Notes: generated from the sequence alone by a model not told the origin. A DNA stretch of 27,327 bases from a virus (IMGVR_UViG_3300031746_000138:1-27327), one strand, 5' to 3'; positions 137-9,016 are shown, numbered from the stretch's first letter. Numbers and translations are program-made.

Positions 137-166
137 TTGTATATTCAATATCATTCCTTATATTTA
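137..166 (+). promoter_or_regulatory. Bacteroidota-type promoter (TTG-N19-TATATTTA)
   Basis: TTG at 137-139, a 19-bp spacer, and TATATTTA at 159-166 followed by AGTA. This fits the Bacteroidota sigma layout of -33 TTG and -7 TAnnTTTG, with A replacing the final G. The stretches CTTGTATATTCAA and TTCCTTATATTTAAGTA are shared with the promoter at 3887. Transcription should begin around 170, giving a leader of about 19 nt before the ATG at 189. Confidence 0.75.
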
Positions 167-188
167 AGTAAGATAAAAGGATAAAAAA

Positions 189-536
189 ATGAAACCAAAT
201 AAAACCCAATTAAGGCAAATCGTTCAGGCAGAATTTAATAAATTCGTGAACGCTAATTTTAAAGTAGGTCAGGTTATATCAACTCGTGAAGTGAAGCAAA
301 AACTTCACGATAAGAAACCGAAATACCTTAGAAAAAAGTATGCGGAGTATGTCGCGTTGTGCGGTCACAATTGCGCGTATGGTATTAAATGGGACTTGAC
401 AATGTTCGAAAGAACTAGTCGCCTAATGAAAAAGCATCCCGGATATTTGGCGTTAGGTACCTTTACCGTTAATTTGAACCGCGGTTTGAATCGTAGTTAT
501 ACTCACACCAAGCACGGTATTTACATTTCCAAATAA
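189..536 (+). CDS. hypothetical basic protein, 115 aa
   Basis: No family recognised. The protein is rich in Lys and Arg, with an N-terminal helical stretch (MKPNKTQLRQIVQAEFNKFV), then a mixed region containing one Cys-x-His-x-x-Cys cluster (CGHNC, about residues 58-62) that could bind metal but lacks a second pair of ligands. The strong positive charge would suit nucleic-acid binding; that is inference only. The ATG is supported by its short A-rich leader downstream of the promoter at 137-166. It is the first gene of this transcription unit, and a structured intergenic element follows it. Codon usage is somewhat more GC-rich than in the genes that follow. Confidence 0.75.
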   Translation: MKPNKTQLRQIVQAEFNKFVNANFKVGQVISTREVKQKLHDKKPKYLRKKYAEYVALCGHNCAYGIKWDLTMFERTSRLMKKHPGYLALGTFTVNLNRGLNRSYTHTKHGIYISK

Positions 537-543
537 AGACTTG

Positions 544-621
544 CCGATACATCGCTTGCTACCTAGATTAATCTAGTACGATGCTCCTGAATAAAGTAGT
601 TGAATAAAGGAGGAATATCGG
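544..621 (+). ncRNA. candidate structured RNA, three-way junction
   Basis: Four perfect helices nest in 78 nt. P1 is CCGATA 544-549 with TATCGG 616-621. P2 is CATCG 550-554 with CGATG 579-583. An inner hairpin CTAGA 563-567 / TCTAG 572-576 has loop TTAA. P3 is CTCCT 584-588 with AGGAG 608-612. There are no unpaired bases at the P1/P2 and P2/P3 junctions, and GAA (613-615) links P3 to P1. P3 pairs the AGGAG of a perfect AGGAGG Shine-Dalgarno-like run. No known riboswitch or ribozyme core was recognised: the hammerhead CTGANGA and GAAA boxes are absent. It could act as a 5' regulatory element for the RNA-repair operon starting at 644, or as a small RNA. Confidence 0.55.
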
Positions 622-643
622 AGTTAAAAAATAAACCAAGAAA

Positions 644-1297
644 ATGAAATTAACCTTAGAAAAAAACCAAAAATTATTTTTTACATCGGATACGCATTAT
701 GCACATACGAATATATGCAGAGGAGTTACCTCTTGGAAAGATGCTGAGGATAAAACTAGAGATTTCAAAACTCTAGATGCGATGAATGCTGCTATTGTTA
801 ACAATATAAATACAAAAGTAGGTCAGGATGATATTTTAATTCATTTAGGTGATTTCAGTTTTGGTGGTTTTGATAAGATAATTGAATTTCGTAAACGAAT
901 AGTTTGTAAAAATATCATATTAGTTTATGGTAATCATGACCATCATATTCAAAGAAATAAGGACGGTGTTCAAGGATATTTCATGAAGACTACTCAATAT
1001 CTAAACTTATCAGTAGTATCAAATCCGGGAACATTATTAACTTCTGAAACACATTTTGTTTGTTTTCACTATCCAATTGCGAGTTGGGAGAATATGAATA
1101 AAGGAGTGTACCATTTATTTGGTCATGTACATTTACCGGGAAATAAAAAGTTATTGGATAATCGTAGTATGGATGTGGGTATGGATGGTAATAATTATAC
1201 TCCATACGAGTTGCATGAAGTAGTAAGAATTTTAAAATCACAATCGGTGAAATCATTATTACCATATAATGACCACCATGTAACCGAAGTACGATGA
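644..1297 (+). CDS. calcineurin-like metallophosphoesterase
   Basis: This 217-aa protein carries the full set of binuclear metallophosphoesterase motifs: D-T-H (D16, H18), GD (G69-D70), GNHDHH (N98, H99), an isolated His (H142 in FHYP) and GHVH (H161, H163). The family hydrolyses phosphomono- or diesters using two metal ions. The substrate cannot be read from the sequence. The gene starts a tightly packed operon (ATGA overlap with 1294) containing a polynucleotide-kinase-like protein and an RNA ligase, so removal of 2',3'-cyclic or 3'-phosphate ends is a plausible role. The central module of bacterial Pnkp uses this same fold. A general nucleotide phosphodiesterase is the alternative. The family call is secure; the role is inferred. 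Confidence 0.9.
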   Translation: MKLTLEKNQKLFFTSDTHYAHTNICRGVTSWKDAEDKTRDFKTLDAMNAAIVNNINTKVGQDDILIHLGDFSFGGFDKIIEFRKRIVCKNIILVYGNHDHHIQRNKDGVQGYFMKTTQYLNLSVVSNPGTLLTSETHFVCFHYPIASWENMNKGVYHLFGHVHLPGNKKLLDNRSMDVGMDGNNYTPYELHEVVRILKSQSVKSLLPYNDHHVTEVR

Positions 1298-1710
1298 GCA
1301 AATATCTAATCTTATTAAGAGGGCTGCCAGGTGCAGGTAAAAGTTCATTTGCTGAATTTATGTATCCATCATCTTTAGTTTGTGAAGCAGATAAATACTT
1401 TGTTGATAAAGCTACTGGTGAATATAAATGGGATGGTTCTAAATTACATGAAGCACACGAGTGGTGTTATAACTTGGTTGAAACTTATATGAAAGATAAT
1501 CTAGTCAATGAACAATATTATACTGAGATTGTCGTTTCAAATACGTTAACCACTGAGAATGAAGTGAATAAATATAAAGAGTTAGGTGAAAAGTATGGTT
1601 ACATTGTAATCAGTTTAATAGTTGAAAACCGACACGGTAACAAATCAGTGCATAATGTTCCTGAAGCGTCAATTGAAAAAATGAGAAAAAGATTTGATAT
1701 CAAATTATAA
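1294..1710 (+). CDS. P-loop polynucleotide kinase-like protein
   Basis: 138 aa. The Walker A motif GLPGAGKSS spans residues 10-18, directly after the first beta strand (YLILLR). D33 in the CEADKY stretch sits where T4 polynucleotide kinase has its catalytic Asp. Near the C-terminus, an Arg followed by a PEASIEKMRKRF stretch resembles the lid and terminal helix of the T4 PNK kinase domain and related AAA kinases. The T4 enzyme's C-terminal HAD phosphatase domain is absent. The phosphatase role may instead fall to the upstream metallophosphoesterase, whose stop overlaps this start as ATGA. Probable role: ATP-dependent 5'-OH phosphorylation of RNA or DNA ends. A small-molecule kinase of the zeta/AAA_33 group remains possible. 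Confidence 0.8.
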   Translation: MSKYLILLRGLPGAGKSSFAEFMYPSSLVCEADKYFVDKATGEYKWDGSKLHEAHEWCYNLVETYMKDNLVNEQYYTEIVVSNTLTTENEVNKYKELGEKYGYIVISLIVENRHGNKSVHNVPEASIEKMRKRFDIKL

Positions 1711-1713
1711 ATT

Positions 1714-1983
1714 ATGGAAACAGCAGAAGAATTTTGGAATTTATCATGTAAAAATGATAAACTAAAATCACCATCAGATATAATGATTGAATTTGCTAAA
1801 CACCATGTAGATGCAGCATTAAAAGCGGCGGCTGAAAATAGTAAAGTATGTCCTACTGATTATCAACCTATACCAAATCGAAAAGTAGGTAGTGCTTATG
1901 TTATTATTGATAGAGCAGATATCATGATAGTAGTCGATAAAGAATCTATTACCAATTCTTACCCTTTAACCGACATCAAATGA
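1714..1983 (+). CDS. hypothetical protein in the RNA-repair operon, 89 aa
   Basis: No domain could be named. The N-terminal half is predicted helical (EEFWNLSCKNDKLKSPSDIM, then an Ala-rich helix around residues 28-44). The C-terminal half ends in a beta/turn pattern with a VDKESITNSYPL stretch. It has no signal peptide or membrane segment. It starts 3 nt after the kinase gene and overlaps the next gene by 4 nt (ATGA at 1980-1983), so it is surely translated with the operon. It may be a small accessory or adaptor to the repair enzymes, but nothing in the sequence proves that. Confidence 0.8.
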   Translation: METAEEFWNLSCKNDKLKSPSDIMIEFAKHHVDAALKAAAENSKVCPTDYQPIPNRKVGSAYVIIDRADIMIVVDKESITNSYPLTDIK

Positions 1984-2570
1984 TAAATAATTTTAGTACT
2001 TTAAAACCATTTATAACTTTTACTTCACCTTCGGATTTCTATTTCCTACAAATACTAAAGCGTAGAAAAGATAATCCAGGTCAAACCGGTGATGTACATG
2101 TAATTCATAATTATTTTATCTATTCAGTTGAACAATATGAATCATTGGAAGAAAAAGTAATTAAACTATGTACCGATAATAATGCTCGTGCATATTTGAG
2201 ATTGAACAAACGGAATGATTACAAAATAGGATTACAGGTTCTTAGAAAATCAGCACAATTACTTGCAGATGGTAATCCTAAAGCTATTAAAAATGTTTAC
2301 GAATCAGTATGCGGTGAATTTCATCATGACCCAATTAAAAAATGGATTGTAGATATTGATGTTCATTATCCAGATAATCAAGTTACTGCATTTGCAATAT
2401 CCGAATTTATTTCTAAAATTGAACCGATTGGACCTAAAGTTTTAGCTAATATTCCTACTAAAAATGGTTTGCATTTGATTACTACAGCTTTTAATAAAGC
2501 TAAGTTTAAAGAAATTTATTCTGAAATCGACATTCACGGCGATAACCCCACTGTTTTGTTTTGTTTATGA
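1980..2570 (+). CDS. primase-polymerase (AEP)-like protein, tentative
   Basis: 196 aa. Three short motifs appear in the order expected of the archaeo-eukaryotic primase fold. WIVDIDVH has D125 and D127 (hhhDhD). TKNGLHLIT has H165 (sxH-like). YSEIDIHGDNPT has D184 (hD). The N-terminal 110 residues are unassigned, with a helical middle. The gene sits between a kinase-like gene and an RNA ligase, overlapping each neighbour by 4 nt, so it probably joins the same end-processing pathway. An AEP enzyme could add nucleotides to ends before ligation; bacterial LigD likewise pairs an AEP polymerase with a phosphoesterase and a ligase. The motifs are short and the fold call is inferential. A different nucleotidyltransferase-like family is possible. 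Confidence 0.5.
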   Translation: MINNFSTLKPFITFTSPSDFYFLQILKRRKDNPGQTGDVHVIHNYFIYSVEQYESLEEKVIKLCTDNNARAYLRLNKRNDYKIGLQVLRKSAQLLADGNPKAIKNVYESVCGEFHHDPIKKWIVDIDVHYPDNQVTAFAISEFISKIEPIGPKVLANIPTKNGLHLITTAFNKAKFKEIYSEIDIHGDNPTVLFCL

Positions 2571-3661
2571 AATCATACGACTTAAATTTAATACAAAAGT
2601 ATATTGATGATGGATTGTTGGAAGTGCAAAAGCATCCAACTCTTCCATTAAAGATATACAACTATTCTAGGGAAGTCTCTTTCGAAAAAAAGTGGGATGA
2701 AATAACCTTAGCAATGAGAGGAACTATATTAGATGATACCGGAACCTTAATAACTAAAGGTTATGATAAGTTTTTCAATTATGAAGAACTACAATTATCT
2801 GATATACCTACTGATTCAGGATATATTACCGTTCAAGATAAAGCTGATGGGTCGTTAGGAATATTGTTTAACTATGCTAATGAATGGATTCTAGCTACTA
2901 GAGGTTCATTTACTTCTGACCAAGCTATTAAAGGAATGGAAATACTAAAGTCAAAATATGATTTATCTAAATTTGATAAGTCAATTACATACTTGTCTGA
3001 AATTATTTATCCGGAAAACCAAATTGTAGTTAATTATGACGGTGAAGAAAAACTAGTATTTACATCATGTGTTCGTACTTTAAATGGAAAAGAATTTGAT
3101 TGGGAAGAATCTTTAAAAATATTATTTGAATCAGGAATAAATTCTGAGGATGTAGTACCATATACAAATGTGTCATCTGGTGATATAGCAGCTTTTGCAA
3201 ATGAGTTAAAATCTAAAAATCTAAATAATAAGGAAGGATATGTATTACGATTCTATCCTTCTAACTTTAGAATGAAGATTAAGTTTGAAGACTATTGCAG
3301 GTTACACCGTTTAATGACTAACTTTTCCAATGTAGATATATGGGAATGTTTAATGAAAGGTGATGATATAACCGGATATCTAGATAATGTACCTGATGAA
3401 TTTGATGACTGGGTTAGAAATACAATTAAAGAATTACAATTTAAGTTTGATATTCTTAAAGATGAATATGAAAAAGAGTTCTGGACATTGTTTGATAAAA
3501 AAGAATTTGCTATGAAAATTGAATCTAATCCAAATAAGCATATTCTATTTAAGAGATTAAATTCAGTGTCTAAAGTATATGATGAAATGATTTGGAAAAA
3601 GATTAGACCGGTATATCAAAAACCATTTTGGCAAACTAAAACAAATTTAGAAGTAGAATGA
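2567..3661 (+). CDS. T4 Rnl1-type RNA ligase
   Basis: 364 aa from the ATG at 2567, which overlaps the previous stop as ATGA. A TTG two codons upstream is less likely. Nucleotidyltransferase motifs are in order: K92-A-D-G (motif I, adenylated Lys), ATRGSF about residues 110-115 (Ia), YLSEIIY about 142-148 (III), EGYVLRF about 223-229 (IV) and MKIKFEDY about 236-243 (V). Length and layout match T4 RNA ligase 1 (374 aa), which joins 5'-phosphate and 3'-OH RNA ends using ATP. In T4 it repairs tRNA cleaved by host anticodon nucleases. With the kinase-like and phosphoesterase genes upstream, this protein would perform the sealing step. The ligase call is strong; tRNA as substrate is inferred. Confidence 0.93.
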   Translation: MKSYDLNLIQKYIDDGLLEVQKHPTLPLKIYNYSREVSFEKKWDEITLAMRGTILDDTGTLITKGYDKFFNYEELQLSDIPTDSGYITVQDKADGSLGILFNYANEWILATRGSFTSDQAIKGMEILKSKYDLSKFDKSITYLSEIIYPENQIVVNYDGEEKLVFTSCVRTLNGKEFDWEESLKILFESGINSEDVVPYTNVSSGDIAAFANELKSKNLNNKEGYVLRFYPSNFRMKIKFEDYCRLHRLMTNFSNVDIWECLMKGDDITGYLDNVPDEFDDWVRNTIKELQFKFDILKDEYEKEFWTLFDKKEFAMKIESNPNKHILFKRLNSVSKVYDEMIWKKIRPVYQKPFWQTKTNLEVE

Positions 3662-3828
3662 TAAAAGTTTTCACAACGGGTGTCGGTCCTTTGACCGCCG
3701 GAGATGCATTAACTAAGGAATATAATGATTGGGTTCAAACCTTAGTTAAAAAAATTGAAATAATTTCAATTCATACTTCAAGCAATAAGTACGGATGGAT
3801 GCTTACTGTCCTATATAAGAGTAACTAA
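3658..3828 (+). CDS. small hypothetical protein, 56 aa (Cse60-like pattern)
   Basis: The ATG overlaps the ligase stop (ATGA at 3658-3661), and the frame runs to TAA at 3826-3828. The protein starts MIKVFTTG and ends with a strand pattern (IEIISIHTS, then WMLTVLYK), with a helix containing NDWVQTLVKKI between. This beta-alpha-beta-beta layout resembles the small Cse60-type proteins found in many phages, whose function is unknown. The 46-aa protein at 9040 has a comparable start and NDW motif. It lies at the end of the repair operon, just before operator region B. Confidence 0.7.
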   Translation: MIKVFTTGVGPLTAGDALTKEYNDWVQTLVKKIEIISIHTSSNKYGWMLTVLYKSN

Positions 3829-3886: not shown

Positions 3887-3916
3887 TTGTATATTCAACT
3901 TGGTTCCTTATATTTA
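3887..3916 (+). promoter_or_regulatory. Bacteroidota-type promoter (TTG-N19-TATATTTA)
   Basis: TTG 3887-3889, 19-bp spacer, TATATTTA 3909-3916. The sequence around it matches the promoter at 137 (CTTGTATATTCAA and TTCCTTATATTTAAGTA). The expected start of transcription, about 3920-3924, coincides with the first ATG of the next gene. Confidence 0.75.
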
Positions 3917-3919
3917 AGT

Positions 3920-4195
3920 ATGGTAAAAGATAAAAATAACGAAAATCCGATAGTAGCTCTAATGAGCAGAAGTGAAGTAGTTGAATGGTTGAATAAAAAA
4001 TGTAAGTCGACAGCCGCTGATATAGTGGATTCAATTCCTACCACCTATTATATAACAAAAGATGACACCGAATATTGTCATAAAGAGGACCTTCGTAAAT
4101 TGTTGAACCCGTTGTTAGTAATAGAAATGGAATGTGATGTAACTACTGTTCTAATTCCAAAAAAACATGTTCATTTCACAGGCGTTGAAATCTAA
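3920..4195 (+). CDS. hypothetical protein, 91 aa
   Basis: No family recognised. The reading frame is open from a TTG at 3887, but that TTG is the promoter -33 box, so it cannot be the start. The first ATG (3920) lies at the predicted transcription start and would make a nearly leaderless message. A second ATG at 3962 (MSRSEVVEWLNKK) would leave a leader of about 40 nt and is equally plausible. The protein has an early helix (EVVEWLNKKCK), then a strand-rich part (YYITKDD, then VIEMECDVTTVLIPKKHV). It contains one Cys in each half and no clear metal site. It probably heads a short two-gene unit ending before operator region C. Confidence 0.65.
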   Translation: MVKDKNNENPIVALMSRSEVVEWLNKKCKSTAADIVDSIPTTYYITKDDTEYCHKEDLRKLLNPLLVIEMECDVTTVLIPKKHVHFTGVEI

Positions 4196-4440: not shown

Positions 4441-4470
4441 TTGTAACTATGGTTTTCTTCCTTATATTTA
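4441..4470 (+). promoter_or_regulatory. Bacteroidota-type promoter with conserved leader
   Basis: TTG 4441-4443, 19-bp spacer, TATATTTA 4463-4470. From CTTATATTTAAG through the leader to the ATG and one base beyond, about 37 nt are identical to the promoter cassette at 6558. Both also share ATTTTGTGCTTGT at the -33 box. The leader, about 20 nt, is purine-rich and has no Shine-Dalgarno match. Confidence 0.8.
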
Positions 4471-4494
4471 AGTATAGATAAAAAGAACAGAAAA

Positions 4495-5085: not shown

Positions 5086-5311
5086 AATGAGTGACGAACA
5101 ATTAAGGTTTTATAATAGGAAGTACTTAAACAAGAAAGTAGATGTTATGACCGACAGAGGTCAATATGTCGGGATTCTTGGATTCATTGGCCCGAACACC
5201 ATATTGGGTTGGGAGCTATCTATGACTATTGGCAGAACTCCTGTTCACATAAAAGAAATTTTCTCAATCAAATTGTACTCTGAACCCGACCGTATTTATG
5301 ACAAAATCTAA
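5078..5311 (+). CDS. hypothetical small beta-barrel protein, 77 aa
   Basis: The frame begins with ATG at 5078, inside the previous gene's end, or at a second ATG (5087) one base after that gene's stop, which may be the true start. After a short helix (EQLRFYNRKYL), the protein shows a strand-turn-strand series (KVDVMTDRGQYVGILGFIG, then TILGWEL) that looks like an SH3- or Sm-like small barrel. No catalytic residues stand out. It overlaps the next gene by 14 nt, so the two are probably translationally coupled. Confidence 0.75.
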   Translation: MTKMSDEQLRFYNRKYLNKKVDVMTDRGQYVGILGFIGPNTILGWELSMTIGRTPVHIKEIFSIKLYSEPDRIYDKI

Positions 5312-5633
5312 ACGATTCTTTCACGCTACCACTATTACGAATGCTTACTCTATTAAAGATGAAGGATTGAAACCGTTATTCGGTGAAGTATATTTAACCG
5401 ATTCAATTGAAAGTGCTTGTAGGTGGATGGGATTTCGATTAAAAGCGATGGGTGAAACGGTAATGGCAGTAATTGAAGTTGAAGCTGATGAAAGTAAATT
5501 GATTGAAGGAACAGACCACTCACCAGAAATGGTAAAGATTTTCGGAGTCGGCAAATCATTAGTTTCAGAAAAACGAATACCAAAAAGTAGAATTAAACGA
5601 GTTCATTATTTTAGATTAACCGACCCAAAATGA
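5298..5633 (+). CDS. ADP-ribosyltransferase-fold protein (KptA/Arr-like)
   Basis: The 111-aa protein follows the compact ADP-ribosyltransferase pattern of RNA 2'-phosphotransferase (KptA/Tpt1) and rifampin-ART proteins: FFHATT with H9, then a helix and SIKDEGLKP, then VYLTD with Y32, then a helix of the kind that carries the A-x-x-x-x-G segment. A strand (VMAVIEVEAD) and a terminal VSEKRIPKSRIKRVHYF segment follow. These families use NAD+ to modify RNA, proteins or drugs, or to remove a 2'-phosphate from spliced RNA. The catalytic set here is only partly recognisable, so activity is uncertain. The RNA ligase operon nearby makes a KptA-like RNA role attractive; host-protein ADP-ribosylation, as in T4 ModA/ModB, is the alternative. 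Confidence 0.6.
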   Translation: MTKSKRFFHATTITNAYSIKDEGLKPLFGEVYLTDSIESACRWMGFRLKAMGETVMAVIEVEADESKLIEGTDHSPEMVKIFGVGKSLVSEKRIPKSRIKRVHYFRLTDPK

Positions 5634-5857
5634 TAATCAACGACAACCAAATTAAAGAAATAATTCTTAAGGAAGTAACTGATTTAGTAGAGTGGCTCGA
5701 TATTATCAGAGCTTATATCTACGAAAAGAAAGGAGTTGATATTGGCCAAATTAAATACCCGAATCCAAATCATCCTCATTTTCAATTATTTTTAATTGCT
5801 CAGGATACATGTTGGAATTATTATGCTAAAAAACTTTTAAAACCGATAACCGAATAA
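5630..5857 (+). CDS. hypothetical protein, 75 aa
   Basis: No family recognised. The protein is mostly helical: residues 7-35 form an amphipathic helix (IKEIILKEVTDLVEWLDIIR), a proline/asparagine-rich turn follows (YPNPNHPHF), then a second helix with W-N-Y-Y. No membrane segment or signal is seen. It overlaps its upstream neighbour as ATGA and its stop shares a base with the next start, so it is part of the 4495-6375 unit. Confidence 0.75.
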   Translation: MIINDNQIKEIILKEVTDLVEWLDIIRAYIYEKKGVDIGQIKYPNPNHPHFQLFLIAQDTCWNYYAKKLLKPITE

Positions 5858-6375
5858 TGGATACGAACAAATTTGTAGATTATTGCCACAACAGACATGA
5901 CCGAGTTTGCAATCAGACTTACTCACCTGGAATTCCATATTCCTTTCATTTACGAATGGTTGAAGAACAGGTAAGAAAGTTTGGAAAATTACTTGACCCG
6001 TCCGTATATGACTTAGTACTGATGGGCGCTTCCGGGCACGATTTAATTGAAGATGCTAGGGTAACTTATGGTGACTTAGTAGGAATGGTTGGTGTTGATG
6101 TTTCAGAAATCATTTTCCTTTGTACTGAAATGCGAGGACGATATCGTGCAGACCGTAAAAATGATGCATTCTATGAAGACCTTAAGACTAATAAACTAGC
6201 AGTGTTTGTTAAATTATGTGATATCATTGCCAATGTTAAATTTGGATTCTTAGAAAATTCTAAGCAATTTCAAAGAGCAAAGGATGAATATCCAAAAATC
6301 AAAGGTAATTTATATTGTGAAGAATATAAACCGATGTTCGATTACTTGGAAAGCATATTTGATATCAAACATTAA
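5857..6375 (+). CDS. SpoT/MESH1-like HD hydrolase
   Basis: 172 aa matching the HD hydrolase half of RelA/SpoT and the stand-alone MESH1 family: RHDRVCNQ (H14), GIPYSFH (H31), GHDLIED (H61-D62 and E65-D66) and VKLCDIIANV (D122, N126), which is the equivalent of the SpoT KLADRLHN stretch. There is no synthetase, TGS or ACT domain. The family uses a metal ion to remove pyrophosphate from (p)ppGpp, and MESH1 also acts on NADPH. A phage copy could blunt the host stringent response or adjust nucleotide pools during infection; this is inference. It is the last gene of its unit, followed by a hairpin at 6420. Confidence 0.85.
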   Translation: MDTNKFVDYCHNRHDRVCNQTYSPGIPYSFHLRMVEEQVRKFGKLLDPSVYDLVLMGASGHDLIEDARVTYGDLVGMVGVDVSEIIFLCTEMRGRYRADRKNDAFYEDLKTNKLAVFVKLCDIIANVKFGFLENSKQFQRAKDEYPKIKGNLYCEEYKPMFDYLESIFDIKH

Positions 6376-6557: not shown

Positions 6558-6587
6558 TTGTTTAATGTAACCTTTATCTTATATTTA
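6558..6587 (+). promoter_or_regulatory. Bacteroidota-type promoter with conserved leader
   Basis: TTG 6558-6560, 19-bp spacer, TATATTTA 6580-6587, then the same leader as at 4471-4494 up to the ATG at 6612. Open reading from the TTG at 6552 lies inside this promoter and is not expected to be translated. Confidence 0.8.
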
Positions 6588-6611
6588 AGTATAGATAAAA
6601 AGAACAGAAAA

Positions 6612-8797: not shown

Positions 8798-9016
8798 ATG
8801 AAAATCTTGTACTTAATTTTTAGCGTTCTTACTGCTATGCTTGGTTATACCATACATGGTAGTATCTTTTGGTGTATAATGGATTTTATCTTTACTCCGA
8901 TTACTTGGGTTAAATGGATAATATTTCATGAAATAACAGCATCAGTATTTCAACAAACATTTCCCTGGTTCTTTAACAGCATCAGTATTTCAACAAACAT
9001 TTCCCTGGTTCTTTAA
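8798..9016 (+). CDS. small membrane protein with altered C-terminus, 72 aa
   Basis: Two hydrophobic segments are visible, about residues 1-17 (ILYLIFSVLTAMLGYTI) and 22-46 (SIFWCIMDFIFTPITWVKWI), followed by a tail. This is a small inner-membrane protein of a type common in phages, with no known function. The last 14 residues (SISISTNISLVL region) are read from a frame-shifted second copy of a 40-bp tandem duplication (8934-9016). Without it the protein would end WFFN at about 58 aa. It is the first of the membrane-protein group reaching 11,044. Confidence 0.75.
   Translation: MKILYLIFSVLTAMLGYTIHGSIFWCIMDFIFTPITWVKWIIFHEITASVFQQTFPWFFNSISISTNISLVL
8934..9016 (+). repeat. perfect 40-bp tandem duplication
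   Basis: 8934-8976 is identical to 8974-9016: two exact copies at period 40 plus 3 shared bases. Because 40 is not a multiple of 3, the second copy is read in another frame and extends the 8798 gene. The copies show no substitutions, which suggests a recent event, or an assembly artefact. Confidence 0.95.

Follow-up and report, generated by a model that had tools for sequence, protein, structure and literature searches.

A tailed-phage operon predicted to heal and seal RNA ends carries a conserved primase-like protein as a candidate nucleotidyltransferase

We describe a predicted RNA end-repair operon at positions 644 to 3661 of IMGVR_UViG_3300031746_000138, an IMG/VR virus fragment of 27,327 bases (the whole fragment, which is also the full extent of the genomic context, is called the window below). 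Three of its genes belong to recognisable enzyme families: a calcineurin-type metallophosphoesterase (MPE, 644..1297, 217 aa), a lone P-loop kinase domain (KIN, 1294..1710, 138 aa) and a T4 Rnl1-type ATP-dependent RNA ligase (LIG, 2567..3661, 364 aa). Between kinase and ligase lies a fourth gene, P4 (1980..2570, 196 aa), which belongs to phrog_14949, a family of no known function, and whose product is an archaeo-eukaryotic primase (AEP)-like protein and a predicted nucleotidyltransferase. We put the probability that this is an RNA end-repair operon of four enzymes, with P4 as the AEP-like nucleotidyltransferase, at roughly 60%. The novelty lies in P4 and not in the trio of MPE, KIN and LIG.

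Metallophosphoesterases can remove 2',3'-cyclic and 3'-phosphates, polynucleotide kinase (PNK) makes 5'-phosphate ends, and Rnl1 joins a 5'-phosphate to a 3'-OH. In the mechanism that we propose, MPE would convert a 2',3'-cyclic phosphate or 3'-phosphate end to a 3'-OH, and KIN would place a phosphate onto the 5'-OH end. P4, as a minimal AEP-like nucleotidyltransferase, would re-add the nucleotide or nucleotides lost at the break, or otherwise extend the healed 3'-OH, before the healed ends are sealed by LIG. The substrate would presumably be RNA rather than DNA, with tRNA as a candidate target, and the four enzymes may jointly reverse the cleavage of tRNA or other RNA by host defence nucleases.

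The original prediction for this DNA had named the three enzymes of the trio, and all three open reading frames (ORFs) are present on the + strand in one operon. The tight spacing that it described is equally real, with a 3-nt gap at 1711-1713 and four 4-nt overlaps (1294/1297, 1980/1983, 2567/2570 and 3658/3661). Its inventory nevertheless overlooked two intervening genes, P3 (1714..1983) and P4, which are packed on the same strand. The listed start of LIG is a TTG at 2561, two codons before the ATG at 2567 used here.

MPE matches PF00149 (E 6e-7) and phrog_547 (E 9e-43), and its metal ligands D16, H18, G69-D70, N97-H98, H142 and G160-H161-x-H163 are invariant in 19 homologues. These include the D16/H18, GD70 and GHVH motifs given in the original prediction, which had placed the asparagine-histidine pair one residue too far along, at N98/H99. 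When the MPE profile was compared with solved structures, the nearest was Aq_1665 (1xm7), an uncharacterised Aquifex protein. A link to the Pnkp phosphatase was sought with the same profile: up to E 0.5 only 1xm7 was returned and no Pnkp chain, in a library whose content of a Pnkp phosphatase chain is unconfirmed and with a distant PF00149 kinship possible. Because the profile reaches only Aq_1665 among solved structures, MPE is not shown to be a Pnkp phosphatase, and we assign it provisionally to another lineage (phrog_547/Aq_1665).

The identity of this nearest structure would also suit a different role for MPE, in which it would act in counter-signalling, breaking down the cyclic nucleotides that host immunity uses as alarm signals, and have its place among repair genes without being part of the repair. 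Such a role has been proposed for some phage calcineurin-type phosphodiesterases (PMC7824862), and some loci have MPE without a nearby ligase while others have KIN and LIG without MPE. Against it stand the immediate adjacency of MPE to kinase and ligase, the permuted gene orders and the occurrence in unrelated phage groups, and we consider it improbable. In many of the KIN-LIG loci without MPE (L007, L013-L023, L025-L030 and L056), a cREC gene, for which cyclic-phosphate processing is predicted, lies directly downstream of the ligase, as if in the 3'-healing slot. A mutual exclusion of MPE and cREC/HAD-SAK beside the ligase had p 9e-6 but p 0.65 once near-identical loci were removed, and it is not claimed.

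KIN, predicted to be a 5'-OH polynucleotide kinase, matches AAA_33 (E 7.5e-9), phrog_2071 (E 1e-38) and phrog_505, a polynucleotide kinase family (4e-6). The GLPGAGKSS P-loop, already noted in the original prediction, is invariant or nearly so in homologues, and D33, the catalytic Asp, is invariant. Among solved structures the KIN profile matched T4 PNK (1ly1, E 7e-5; 1ltq was also matched), Pnkp1 (4xrp, 8e-4) and 4gp7 (1.4e-3), the last of which we take to be the C. thermocellum Pnkp kinase. A zeta-toxin or nucleoside kinase, named beforehand as the outcome that would speak against a repair role, is ruled out as the best match, because the profile favours T4 PNK and Pnkp1 and finds the zeta toxin at a far poorer E of 0.32. 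On these matches KIN is a PNK-family P-loop kinase domain. Since seryl-tRNA(Sec) kinase (3adb) scores like T4 PNK in the same search (7e-5), KIN may act on something other than 5'-OH ends.

LIG matches PF09511 at E 9e-15, above the cut-off, and phrog_562 at E 2e-56. Its profile matches T4 Rnl1 (2c5u) at E 1e-23 over profile positions 44-355, the C-terminal region included. The K92-A-D-G motif of the original prediction is real: K92-x-D-G is invariant in 25 homologues, and the same holds for the remaining positions where catalytic residues are expected (E, EG and K-x-K). With 40.9 bits, LIG falls below the NCBIfam T4 RnlA equivalog cut-off of 242. Judged by these profiles, it is a member of the T4 Rnl1 family and not the same protein as T4 RnlA, and identity with the Pnkp ligase is not supported.

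T4 Rnl1 has a second role in tail-fibre attachment, so that LIG might instead serve virion assembly in an operon that is no repair unit; phrog_562 bears that label, and tail- and baseplate-type genes were recognised by eye downstream of the operon. Those tail-type genes are more than 10 kb away, however, and LIG has a complete set of ligase residues with healing enzymes in the same operon, which makes this explanation very unlikely.

The original prediction had interpreted the trio as an unfused Pnkp-like set. A function like that of Pnkp is supported by the families of the three proteins and by their co-occurrence. Descent from the Pnkp lineage is not: profile searches tie LIG to T4 Rnl1 and lead from MPE to Aq_1665 and to no Pnkp chain.

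Next, we looked at how widely these genes occur together. Loci were picked by P4 alone because ascertainment bias was to be avoided; 80 were collected, and 38 larger source contigs, not fully independent of each other, were searched whole, with expectations based on uniform placement. Of the 18 contigs with both LIG and MPE, 14 have the two genes no more than 5 kb apart (0.9 expected), so that the lack of co-occurrence named beforehand as speaking against a repair role was not observed. The genes for MPE, kinase and ligase also stand side by side, or almost so, in Pseudomonas phage Amme-3 and Escherichia phage ESCO9, and all six proteins share PHROG families with MPE, KIN and LIG of the window. 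A fused phage form also seems to exist, since phrog_8238 (737 positions, 'RNA ligase') is matched in succession by KIN (2-139), MPE (189-250, weakly) and the Rnl1 ligase of a trio locus (432-711). The family assignments support an operon in which healing and sealing are divided among three separate enzymes, and these occur together in many unrelated phages. This cassette is already present in public phages under piecemeal annotation and is not new in kind.

The argument for a fourth enzyme begins with the conservation of P4. Among 99 distinct homologues, R28, R70, W122, D125, D127, G163 and H165 are found in all 99, as is T or S at position 160, and D or E at position 184 is found in 94. AEP motifs have been defined as hhhDhD (I), sxH (II) and hD/E (III) (PMC8656161). 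P4 carries all three in RRM-like order, as W122-I-V-D125-I-D127, T160-x-x-G163-x-H165 and I183-D184. The spacing from D to H is 40 residues, within the AEP range (41-42 in LigD-Pol and 32-43 in most PrimPols). The AEP fold consists of an N-terminal alpha-beta unit that packs against a derived RRM. In an AlphaFold2 model of high confidence (pLDDT 95), motif I lies on the first strand, motif II on the third and motif III on the next, giving the order beta(DxD)-alpha-beta-beta(GxH)-alpha-beta(D184)-beta expected for an AEP palm.

Profile comparisons point the same way. With LigD-Pol and PrimPol alignments built in this analysis from the collected loci, hhalign gave P4 scores of 25.9 and 26.6, respectively, whereas the best of 92 control phage families reached 23.6 and 100 column shuffles gave at most 22.9. 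Reverse runs agree with this ranking. As a yardstick, LigD-Pol and PrimPol score 30.7 against each other. A diverse P4 profile scored 28.7-30.8 against PrimPol. P4 is AEP-like by its motifs and modelled topology, short of proven membership of the AEPs.

Several observations weigh against this assignment and against a repair role for P4. Motif III is not universal. The hhalign probabilities are low and alignment-dependent (about 1-32%), and in one direction the score of a subset of 40 sequences was just 18. A Foldseek search of P4 against solved structures found none at E<=0.001 and no AEP in the top 50, the matches being small RRM/ferredoxin-like domains over part of the protein and poor whole-length ones. 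In 44 of the 80 P4-picked loci the 5 kb on either side hold no RNA-repair gene, and the trio loci that we examined in the Pseudomonas and Escherichia phages yielded no P4. Finally, no tRNA genes were found in the 27,327-base window. Searches of Pfam, NCBIfam, PADLOC and PDB sequences gave no identity for P4.

The partial Foldseek matches to RRM/ferredoxin-like domains, with none to an AEP, and the many trio loci that lack P4 would fit a simpler account, in which only the trio forms the RNA repair set, T4-like and unfused, and P4, RRM-like in one half, plays an accessory part by binding RNA or in regulation and is no nucleotidyltransferase. The absolute conservation of D125, D127, H165, T/S160 and G163, together with near-invariant D/E184, resembles a metal-dependent active site and argues against such a protein, as does the finding that AEP profiles outscore every control family. 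We therefore regard the accessory role as somewhat unlikely.

The genomic surroundings of P4 speak for the four-enzyme operon. P4 recurs on one strand in repair clusters among loci collected with LIG or MPE, in at least four orders, MPE-KIN-P4-LIG, P4-LIG-MPE-KIN, LIG-P4-MPE-KIN and P4-MPE-KIN-LIG; because the orders are permuted, its proximity to these genes is unlikely to reflect one inherited block. In the 38 P4-picked contigs, a distance of at most 10 kb separates P4 from LIG in 14 of 22 (2.5 expected) and from MPE in 17 of 25 (2.7 expected); for an Rnl2/Rnl5-type ligase the distance is at most 5 kb in 9 of 22 (1.4 expected). Repair genes are enriched near P4 about 3-8 times over chance, a linkage that is strong yet not universal given the loci without a repair gene nearby. 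Other neighbours are a PF09414 RNA ligase with an OB fold, cREC (PF20274) and HAD_SAK_2 (PF18143, 'Swiss Army Knife RNA repair'), all of them RNA-repair families.

Since DNA is a common substrate of AEP enzymes and PNKs, the set might instead repair DNA ends, with P4 as a primase or polymerase, KIN as a DNA kinase and LIG as a DNA ligase. This is hard to reconcile with a ligase that is an Rnl1 matched through the Rnl1 C-terminal region, or with neighbours of P4 drawn from RNA-repair families, and we give it very little credence.

A single-sequence P4 scan of IMG/VR returned nothing, and an alignment-based search was needed. P4 homologues are present in Lak phages. In Cellulophaga phi17:2 (L002 19060-20415) the homologue adjoins a tRNA nucleotidyltransferase gene, and in the crAss-like phage cr116_1 it lies about 1.6 kb from an RNA ligase. 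The hypothetical protein CP21_052 of Campylobacter phage CP21 (L204 30990-31730) is a distant homologue (E 1.8e-17) that keeps DxD and GxH and is not beside the ligase or phosphoesterase of CP21. P4 as an ordinary host gene was rejected: only 7 loci were found in 84,980 species genomes, all metagenome-assembled and possibly phage contigs.

Mending cleaved tRNA is one of the main ways in which phages counter anticodon nucleases and effectors that cut RNA, and T4-type healing and sealing alone leaves excised nucleotides unrestored. If our reading is right, the missing step is supplied by a conserved AEP-like partner that occurs across hundreds of phage contigs, those of Lak and crAss-like phages included; this partner would extend the primase superfamily into RNA repair and let a phage replace lost nucleotides before rejoining a cut tRNA. 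More tentatively, P4 may represent a new phage-specific, stand-alone and minimal AEP family for RNA repair, refilling or extending damaged RNA 3' ends before Rnl1/Rnl5-type sealing. It would then be an RNA counterpart of LigD and could undo nucleotide-excising (RloC-like) tRNA cleavage, a broader claim that we consider possible rather than probable.

The remaining features of the window concern its layout and source. The source is a tailed phage, probably of Bacteroidota, and no near-identical phage was found in the collection searched. P3, an 89-aa ORF without assigned function, had no trustworthy family match in Pfam and PHROG scans. Among the collected loci its homologues occur only in L182 and L092 (three copies, consecutive at 1898-3007, upstream of the RNA-repair cluster), and with so few homologues it was rejected as a core member of the operon. 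A small ORF (3658-3828) directly follows LIG.

A promoter-like element, CTTATATTTAAGTA, occurs on the + strand at 157..170, upstream of ORF 189-536 and of the operon, and at 3907..3920, just downstream of LIG and ORF 3658-3828, so that these two copies bracket 189-3828 with the RNA-repair operon included. There are four exact copies in the window (also 4461-4474 and 6578-6591) against 0.18 expected. TTGATNNTCAAT palindromes lie upstream of the CTTATATTTAAGTA copies, with 29 matches (<=1 mismatch) against 6.7 expected. The two elements may form a repeated intergenic promoter or regulator site of the phage. Elsewhere, a 111-aa ORF at 5298-5630 (phrog_38345) looks ADP-ribosyltransferase-like by eye ('HAT ... 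GL ... VYLT') with no Pfam match, and a metal-dependent phosphohydrolase at 5857-6372 (phrog_990) is possibly an alarmone hydrolase. A small membrane-protein-like ORF (8798-9016) contains an exact 40-nt tandem duplication (8934-9013), the second copy of which is read in a different frame because 40 is not a multiple of 3.

Among known systems, one of the closest in bacteria is the Pnkp1-Rnl-Hen1 complex (PMC4411300). The operon shares with it and with bacterial Pnkp of the Clostridium thermocellum type the same three predicted activities, a 3'-healing enzyme of the same metallophosphoesterase superfamily and a kinase domain related to KIN (4xrp, 4gp7). It differs in that Pnkp is one fused polypeptide whereas the phage has three separate ORFs, an Rnl1-type ligase and the extra P4, with no Hen1 seen. 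The likeness to T4 Pnkp and Rnl1 lies in the Rnl1 ligase (2c5u) and the T4-PNK-like kinase domain (1ly1). T4 fuses a HAD phosphatase to its kinase, whereas the 3' enzyme here is calcineurin-type and has its own gene. The fused form suggested by phrog_8238 is one polypeptide, in contrast to three in the window.

Jumbo-phage RNA-repair sets comprise a kinase, a phosphatase and an ATP-grasp ligase, with cREC, HAD-SAK, RlaP, 2H or calcineurin-like phosphatases, the last noted in a few of these phages (PMC7824862, which cites Burroughs and Aravind 2016). These sets resemble the operon in their cooperating kinase, 3'-end enzyme and ATP-grasp ligase, and RlaP, proposed in the same source as a nucleotide-restoring transferase in other phages, would have the role that we suggest for P4; the RNA-repair components described in the part of PMC7824862 used here include no AEP-like member. 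With LigD the operon would share an AEP polymerase, a 3'-phosphoesterase and an ATP-dependent ligase, P4 having the same three AEP motifs. LigD is a single protein with a DNA substrate; its phosphoesterase is of another kind, it lacks a kinase and it works together with Ku. Its combination of AEP polymerase, phosphoesterase and ligase, and the action of the polymerase domain on DNA, are described in PMC8656161. The phage set would, on our analysis, apply the logic of LigD to RNA and add a kinase to it.

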